Shown here piece by piece: positions 33,340-34,565 of a stretch of 40,003 nucleotides of DNA; positions within the stretch are counted from its first letter, which is position 1, and each line of letters opens with the position of its first letter. Position numbers and translations under genes: made by a program. The notes beneath the pieces were generated by a model. It saw only the letters and a list, made by a program, of their open reading frames with translations. It had not been told where the DNA came from and did not search any database. Source of the DNA: Deltaproteobacteria bacterium (GTDB taxonomy: Bacteria; Myxococcota_A; Polyangia; Polyangiales; Houyiibacteriaceae); NCBI GenBank assembly GCA_004283055.1, contig SHLP01000019.1:1-40003 (forward strand), in the 5' to 3' direction.

Positions 33340-33370
33340 CTTGTGGAAAAAGAATCGGGTTTTCCACAAG
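33340..33370. other. Perfect 11-bp inverted repeat made of two DnaA-box-like 9-mers
   Basis: CTTGTGGAAAA (33340-33350) and TTTTCCACAAG (33360-33370) are exact reverse complements with a 9-base gap. Each arm contains TTTTCCACA or its complement, matching the DnaA-box consensus TTWTNCACA. It lies 59 bases after the L,D-transpeptidase stop, so it could also be that gene's transcription terminator, although no U-run follows. Confidence 0.6.
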
Positions 33371-33465
33371 CGAATTCCGTTGATCTCCTTCCGCGGATCG
33401 GTGACAAAAGGAGTCGGAAGATCGCGACAGCGAGCTCGGACGTTCTTTGAATCAACCCATCTGAC

Positions 33466-34501
33466 GACAGCAACGCAAGTTGCTGTCTCTCACTCTCACG
33501 GGGGTAAGAGGCGAGGCCGAGAGGTTTCGCAGTCGGGAGGCGCGAAGAACGCCGAACGTGTCCGTGGGTCGTGAGCATTGCACAAGCCGTTGGTCTGATG
33601 CGTGGGTCCGAGCCGAGCGAAAGCTCTGCCAAGGCCGTCGACGCGAGGAGCTACGGTGGAAGGCGCACCAGAATCGGGACGCCGCTCGGTTTCACCACAG
33701 AGCGAGCGCGAAGGTTCTAGACGAGCCGTCGGCGGCACCTGGCACTAGGGCCGACCGATGGCCGTGACGGCGCGTCAGAGGTTCGGAGCTCGGCCGTTTC
33801 GGCGATCGAGCCCCCGCCAAAAGCGAGTGCGACGGGGTGACACCGTCGGCTCACCGTCGGGAAGCCGGTTCGGAACCGGTGACGGTAATCTCACGAGGTT
33901 CGGGTGCCCATCTTTGAAAACTAAAACTCTGGATTGCACGCGTCGGCCTGAACATGCTGCGCAACGCCGCCGAACAGCGGGCGAAAGCCCCGGCGGCGCA
34001 GCGGAGTGCGGCATGAGCCATCGGATCCGCCACAAGCGCATCCCATTTATGCGCCCCTGGAGAGCCGAAAACCAGGGGTTCAGGCACGGCGAGAGTCGTC
34101 GCGGAGTCCAATCACGACGGTTTGCTAAACCCAAATCGTCGCTGGGGCTCTGTCCGAATGAAGAGCCTAGGGCGACCTAGGCGAGTCTTCGGTATCTCGA
34201 AGCAGCCATGCGAGAGGTACGACGGCAGCGCTCGGGACGTGTCGGTCAAAGCTCCTCCAGTGAGTCCAATAGCTCATGCGGGGGGTTAGCAGGCTTCCCG
34301 ACGGGGAATGCATCGCGCCGGAACGTGTCGCGCAAAGCAGGAGAGGCTGAATAAGCCCACCATCGAGCCTCGGCTCGAAATCCAGACAAAGTCGGTCGTG
34401 GTGAGTGCGACGTATTCGCACACACCGAGCCAAACGGCGAGTTTTCGTCGCAAGGTTAGCGAACTTCCAAAAGGGGCGTCCCGTGCCGGGGCGTCCCTTT
34501 T
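33466..34501 (+). ncRNA. Putative large structured noncoding RNA (class unknown)
   Basis: About 1.04 kb without a credible protein but with at least 14 consecutive hairpins. Examples: 33466-33487 (9 bp, GCAA loop); 33586-33635 (inner GAGC-GAAA-GCTC); 33683-33708; 33728-33755; 33789-33810; 33853-33886 (two stacked helices); 33965-33998 (8 bp, 6-base bulge, GGGC-GAAA-GCCC); 34054-34078 (7 bp); 34115-34141 (10 bp with one GU pair); 34161-34186 (GCCTAGG closed by GCGA); 34295-34308; 34364-34377; 34407-34451. Four loops are GNRA when read as plus-strand RNA, fixing the strand. It ends in a strong intrinsic terminator. GNRA loops suggest tertiary contacts as in group II introns or GOLLD/ROOL-type RNAs. 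I found no group II domain V, RNase P, SRP or tmRNA signature. The 5' end and promoter are unknown. Confidence 0.55.
34469..34501 (+). terminator. Rho-independent terminator at the end of the structured-RNA region
   Basis: A 15-bp stem (34469-34483 with 34487-34501) has a 3-base loop and only two GU pairs. It has AAAA at its foot and TTTT at its 3' side, followed by CT. The symmetry would allow termination in both directions. The nearest plus-strand protein gene ends 1.2 kb upstream, so the natural substrate is the structured RNA. Confidence 0.85.
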
Positions 34502-34565
34502 CTATGTAAGCTACCGAAACCAATGAAGTTTTACTGGTGGCACTTCACAGCCCGGTGCCGTCAGG

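Follow-up and report, generated by a model that had tools for sequence, protein, structure and literature searches.

Evidence for a giant structured RNA gene family with DnaA-box-like sites upstream in a myxobacterial order

The window, by which we mean the whole 40,003-nucleotide stretch of DNA that was analysed, appears to carry, as one chromosomal copy, the gene for a giant structured non-coding RNA that is the short form of a new family, and we give this reading a probability of about 0.82. Comparison of homologous loci shows that both ends of the putative gene are conserved, the 5' one as a boundary region and the 3' one as an intrinsic terminator, and that it is non-coding and vertically inherited. 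The initial annotation had proposed at this place a stand-alone structured RNA of about 1 kb belonging to no described class, a proposal that the lack of any Rfam match, strong covariation and the conserved terminator now bear out. Such of its refuting conditions as sequence analysis could address all turned out negative. The features of the locus, in window coordinates, are as follows.

33342-33350, minus strand: DnaA-box-like site TTTTCCACA, matching TTWTNCACA and reading TGTGGAAAA on the plus strand
33360-33368, plus strand: second DnaA-box-like site, also TTTTCCACA, in the opposite orientation
33380-33408, plus strand: predicted promoter, with -35-like TTGATC (33380-33385), a 17-nt spacer and -10-like GACAAA (33403-33408), from a comparative alignment of 21 loci
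33415-34505, plus strand: probable giant structured RNA gene, short form (~1.09 kb), its 5' end predicted; conservation, covariation, negative Rfam search, non-coding
33417-33426, plus strand: conserved 5' element GAAGATCGCG, GAAG(T/A/G)TCGCG across clades
33442-33451, plus strand: boxA-like sequence GTTCTTTGAA, its conservation confined to the genus
33466-33487, plus strand: first perfect hairpin, GNRA loop GCAA, with compensated pair variation in homologues (alignment columns 35-59)
33488-33582, plus strand: 5' domain with an invariant long closing helix, containing block TGTCCGTGGGTCGTGAG.ATTGCA, common to family f8 (model R2; g1 HMM against L155)
33766-33786, plus strand: conserved block GACGGCGCGTCAGAGGTTCGG, also in f8 and f12 members
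33902-33946, plus strand: conserved block GGGTGCCCATCTTTGAAAACTAAAACTCTGGATTGCACGCGTCGG, also in L155, L148, L152, L137 and L154
33928-33935, plus strand: left arm TCTGGATT of a long-range helix, partner 34379-34386, covarying across families
34225-34361, plus strand: 3' core domain, the best-conserved domain between families (models R1 and R3)
34379-34386, plus strand: right arm AATCCAGA of the long-range helix, covarying across families
34463-34505, plus strand: intrinsic terminator, 15-bp stem and T-rich tail, kept in other families

Fold, extent and coding status

The region had been described as rich in hairpins, and it is: the minimum free energy (MFE) of a 1000-nt fold is -475.7, with dinucleotide shuffles giving -419.0 +/- 8.0 (z -7.1), and the MFE structure of 33415-34505 contains 23 hairpin loops. 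Five of these are GNRA loops (33474 GCAA, 33518 GAGA, 33618 GAAA, 33982 GAAA, and 34171 GCGA), among which are all four picked out by the initial annotation (GCAA, GAAA, GAAA, GCGA). The 15-bp terminator stem reported at the end of the RNA is likewise present, with an energy of -25.5 kcal/mol, and is conserved. The extent originally assigned, 33466-34501, has to be corrected at its start: the predicted 5' end lies upstream, with the 5' element at 33417-33426 and a predicted promoter region from ~33340. The nonamer GAGTCCAAT, said to occur twice at about 34104 and 34262, is placed exactly at those positions; its second copy is not conserved, reading GAGCAAAAACAT in L015/L016, and the repeat is therefore not a feature of the family.

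The absence of a credible protein was also correctly called. A Pfam search of the RNA region found no match, only 6 of 169 indel runs relative to 14 homologues are multiples of 3, and none of the open reading frames in the region stays open throughout all homologues; together with the lack of codon periodicity, these results led us to reject a protein-coding reading of the locus. In the genus alignment it is the helix positions that vary, while long unpaired stretches are invariant. In one homologue (L012, from genome G014), a variable 5'-domain hairpin is lengthened by an insertion of ~90 nt, lying between matches 1501-2464 and 2555-2652, from which it is seen that the variable hairpins tolerate growth.

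Conservation, covariation and the wider family

The element is found by blastn in 16 of the 19 genomes of the genus, the window's own included, at 78-94% identity, and the matches span the whole length of the RNA except where contig ends cut them. It is present in one copy per genome and, in every carrier in the genus, is preceded by the same L,D-transpeptidase-like gene; the predicted RNA gene is syntenic and is passed on vertically. The initial annotation had placed it in an accessory region, a view we abandon, as conservation within the genus, and between families in the case of G039, extends to both the locus and the gene upstream, with only the downstream side varying. Three genomes of the genus (G006, G009, and G015), one of them rated 100% complete, returned no match to the RNA, and the same was true of all 14 genomes sampled from other genera of the same family; the missing matches may reflect loss, divergence or lossy search filters or, in the three genomes of the genus, a gap in the assembly. 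Among weak blastn matches outside the genus, two that were checked fall in long open frames (L022, histidine kinase-like, and L023, another) and were discarded as chance. Assembly contigs break within the RNA gene or at its end in L008, L011, L013, L017 and L020, as if the terminator repeat or the strong hairpins impeded assembly.

Compensatory change among the blastn homologues, suggested at the outset as a check on the stems, is in clear excess. RNAalifold applied to the genus alignment gives 307 pairs, 59 of them with double-sided change. For a non-circular test, 213 pairs of probability > 0.9, predicted from the window sequence alone, were followed in 14 homologues, with the null taken from simulations on the tree that retain each column's own rate (n=200). 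For these pairs, 91.2% of cells are paired, compared with 80.7 +/- 1.1% under the null, and 44 pairs are compensated, compared with 17.2 +/- 3.2 and a maximum of 26 in the 200 simulations. A neighbouring coding stretch, serving as control, has a modestly raised paired fraction but no excess of compensated pairs, with 17 vs 12.6 +/- 2.7 (2 vs 2.1 at a stricter cut), and the antisense strand of the RNA element scores below the sense strand. An all-against-all pair test on the genus alone, which has low power with 15 related sequences, detected no significant pair (best E 0.42). The long form (10 sequences, mean 66% identity) keeps 85.6% of its pairs where 62.9 +/- 1.1% would be expected, and shows 208 compensated pairs where 74 +/- 7 would be expected, with an excess in all four of its four segments.

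In the 3' core compared across families, using an alignment obtained by fitting to the model and biased towards it, double-sided change occurs in 45 of 49 pairs, and 89% of cells are paired as against 38-49% with partners slid. The long-range helix, the arms of which lie ~450 nt apart in the window, covaries between families, reading TCTGGATT/AATCCAGA in the window and TGTAGATT/AATCTACA, TGTGGACT/AGTCCACA and TGTGGGTT/AACCCACG elsewhere. Comparative evidence of these kinds shows that the predicted plus-strand RNA secondary structure is under selection across the whole length.

Model R1, describing the 3' core, gave a weak match in G368, a genome from another family of the order. This match falls inside a 1.8-kb non-coding stretch that is conserved in its genus with 67-92% identity between species, and nine genomes of the genus have an R1 match at this position, the best scoring 43 bits. 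Reciprocal HMMs agree on the homologous core. Model R3, built from sequences of the G368 genus without any from the window's genus, recovers the window-genus elements at the right place (E about 1e-7), and adds members from further genera and from two more families; in all, the covariance models reach three other families of the order. Run against 377 genomes sampled across the phylum, R3 has matches confined to this order. Clade HMMs indicate collinear homology along most of the RNA length. Several of the weak family matches gain independent support from synteny, since G039, which belongs to another family, has an orthologue of the L,D-transpeptidase-like gene in the same upstream position (55% identical along 709 aa), and G353 has neighbouring genes in common with G280 and the g38 genomes. 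Matches not accepted into the family are L095 and L097, which came from blastn searches using the long form and were dropped on reading the sequence, and the R1 match in G380 (L064) and R2 match in G408 (L081), for which there was no other support.

All fetched members sit in blocks without codon periodicity, the intergenic non-coding block measuring about 1.3 kb for the window's genus, as against 1.8-3.2 kb for the others. From the 5' element to the terminator, wherever both of these could be located, the RNA is 1085 nt long in the window and 1820 nt in f8; it reaches about 1920 nt in g38, about 2120 nt in g23, and 2245-2403 nt in g32 and g232. The window thus has the short form (about 1.1 kb), and the gene of the other families is 1.8-2.4 kb long. 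The common layout consists of DnaA-box-like sites, a promoter-like region, the 5' element, internal blocks, the 3' core and the intrinsic terminator; blocks common to the window's genus and other families include TGTCCGYGGGTCGTG, GCGTCAGAGGTTCGGC and TCTTTGAAA...TGGRTTGCA. The sequence GTTCTTTGAA near the 5' end has what we take to be a resemblance to rRNA antitermination boxA. A further boxA-like sequence, TCTTTGAAAA (window 33911-33920), is conserved between families, and might bind NusB/NusE for antitermination of the long RNA.

The upstream region and DnaA-box-like sites

The sequence immediately preceding the 5' element has the same make-up at these loci, with between one and three TGTGGAWAA motifs, an A/T tract and hexamers resembling those of promoters. 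Because a scan of the upstream region for the E. coli consensus promoter gave no match, the promoter is assigned from conservation. The giant RNA very probably forms a separate transcription unit driven by this conserved promoter-like region.

At least one TTWTNCACA site occurs just upstream of the RNA in 19 of 21 family loci, against a density of 0.011 per kb elsewhere in the same loci. The consensus DnaA box is TTATCCACA (PMC11317965), with reverse complement TGTGGATAA; the sites in the window are TTTTCCACA rather than the perfect box, and perfect TGTGGATAA is found at this position in other clades. An alternative reading of the two TTTTCCACA sites is that they form a hairpin terminating the upstream gene. 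DnaA-box-like sites close upstream of a promoter-like region are present as a sequence pattern, and we would give an even chance that DnaA binds these sites and so ties synthesis of the RNA to replication or the cell cycle.

Such sites also raise the question of whether the locus is primarily a DNA element, either a replication origin or a DnaA-titration site like datA/DARS, with the RNA secondary. Perfect TTATCCACA is strongly depleted across the genomes of G149, G365 and G366 (2-6 copies per 9.5-11.9 Mb, below the reversed control), yet the RNA locus holds one of the two copies in G149, two of the four in G365 and two of the six in G366. In g32 and g232 there are two tandem boxes with 3 bp between them, the arrangement preferred by E. 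coli DnaA (PMC11317965), and the 3 kb around dnaA contain almost no DnaA box. These observations would suit a DNA element, but the locus has only one to three boxes, and parS lies near dnaA and away from the RNA: parS pairs are 13-17 kb from dnaA in G000, G016 and G018, where the RNA is on other contigs, and 1.7 Mb separate parS from the RNA in G013. Moreover, this reading would leave unexplained the conserved terminator and the strand-specific covariation that extends over 1-2.4 kb of RNA, and we regard it as improbable. Because it is away from dnaA and parS, the RNA locus is probably not the replication origin, and oriC was rejected as an unlikely candidate. GC skew is flat and gives no origin signal. 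Two parS-like palindromes stand close together at G000:C13 16140-16198 (also G016:C13 and G018:C7), and such pairs near dnaA likely mark the origin region of the genus.

The 3' end, neighbouring genes and known large RNAs

Tyrosine recombinase genes (PF00589) lie directly 3' of the RNA in G013 and G016 (L149 6219-7292, plus strand; L150 8286-9371, minus strand). Several genomes of the genus also have near-identical copies of the terminator at other places (L156 6467-6507 and 8810-8941, L157 7886-7919, L158 6114-6157, and L159 4382-4425), the L159 copy being 42 bases from an integrase gene, and in G003 a 2.3-kb interval between terminator copies is without an integrase. This arrangement suggests that integrative elements may use the 3' end of the RNA as a target, an idea that is only suggestive because the G003 interval holds no integrase.

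The recombinase genes and dispersed terminator copies, along with the size and complexity of the RNA, could also be taken as marks of a GOLLD/ROOL-type RNA carried by a phage or mobile element. We consider this very unlikely, as the RNA is single-copy and keeps the same neighbours in different species and, for G039, in different families, and the integrases more likely target its 3' end. No homologue of the RNA was found in plasmid, phage and viral collections, viral contigs included, and no tRNA lies near it; a phage or plasmid origin was rejected on the lack of matches there.

A terminator at the end of the RNA would likewise be compatible with a cis-acting leader, such as a riboswitch or attenuator, controlling a downstream gene. 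The genes downstream differ between clades, however, and are often on the opposite strand, which argues against a leader role; 1-2.4 kb is far longer than known leaders, and the terminator stands at the end of all conserved sequence, making this explanation highly improbable. More probably, the giant RNA would act in trans. No likelier than a leader is a ribozyme or other known class (group II intron, RNase P, tmRNA, OLE) in strongly diverged form, which the GNRA-capped stems, long-range helices and large size might recall, but for which a search of Rfam 15 gave nothing at gathering score and only noise at relaxed E-values, so that no known class was assigned; ARAGORN and Rfam found no tmRNA, RNase P, SRP or 6S RNA, there was no Rfam intron match, no reverse transcriptase was noticed close by, and the RNA is intergenic, with its own terminator in place of splice sites.

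To our knowledge, structured bacterial RNAs of more than 600-800 nt are very rare once rRNA is set aside, and we know of none with the length of the giant RNA; 2.4 kb exceeds 16S rRNA. OLE, ROOL and GOLLD each brought unexpected architecture. The family is two to three times longer than the known large classes, and it is represented by a conserved chromosomal gene, not a phage passenger, with sites like those of the replication initiator in front.

The large, covariation-supported structure without a protein product is shared with GOLLD, ROOL and OLE, which are the nearest in kind, though not in sequence, setting or size. GOLLD is very large and elaborately folded, with many members > 800 nt, and is carried by phages and prophages, frequently close to tRNA islands (PMC12286853), whereas the giant RNA has no sequence or covariance match to it and is chromosomal and syntenic, with no tRNAs nearby. 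ROOL, of about 660 nt, is also large, highly structured and stand-alone, phage- or prophage-borne, with its protein partner unknown (PMC12286853); the giant RNA, by contrast, has no covariance match to it, measures 1.1-2.4 kb and is vertically inherited. OLE is a large ornate chromosomal RNA, of extremophilic bacteria by its name, that forms an RNP and RNA dimers (PMC12286853), but the giant RNA has neither a covariance match to OLE nor any OLE feature. What is new is therefore a class without a relative, together with an unusual upstream region, while the general kind, the large ornate RNA, already exists. The literature searched, with incomplete coverage, contains no description of the giant RNA, and the main text of a survey of 50 bacterial genomes includes no myxobacterium (PMC11109978).

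As to function, the likeliest guess, given somewhat under even odds, is that the giant RNA would be an RNA machine or an RNP or RNA-only scaffold. Tentative to a similar degree is a broader proposal, of a new giant RNA class of up to 2.4 kb, possibly the largest class of structured non-ribosomal bacterial RNA, which would be gated by DnaA and serve as a replication-cycle RNA/RNP machine of myxobacteria. The family would offer a new RNA machine to study, and a link between DnaA and the giant RNA would become directly testable. A partial parallel is CcnA of Caulobacter, a cell-cycle ncRNA at the replication origin that is presumably CtrA-activated (PMC8959179). In both cases an ncRNA would be controlled by a cell-cycle regulator; unlike CcnA, the giant RNA has DnaA-box-like sites upstream, and its locus lies away from dnaA and parS.
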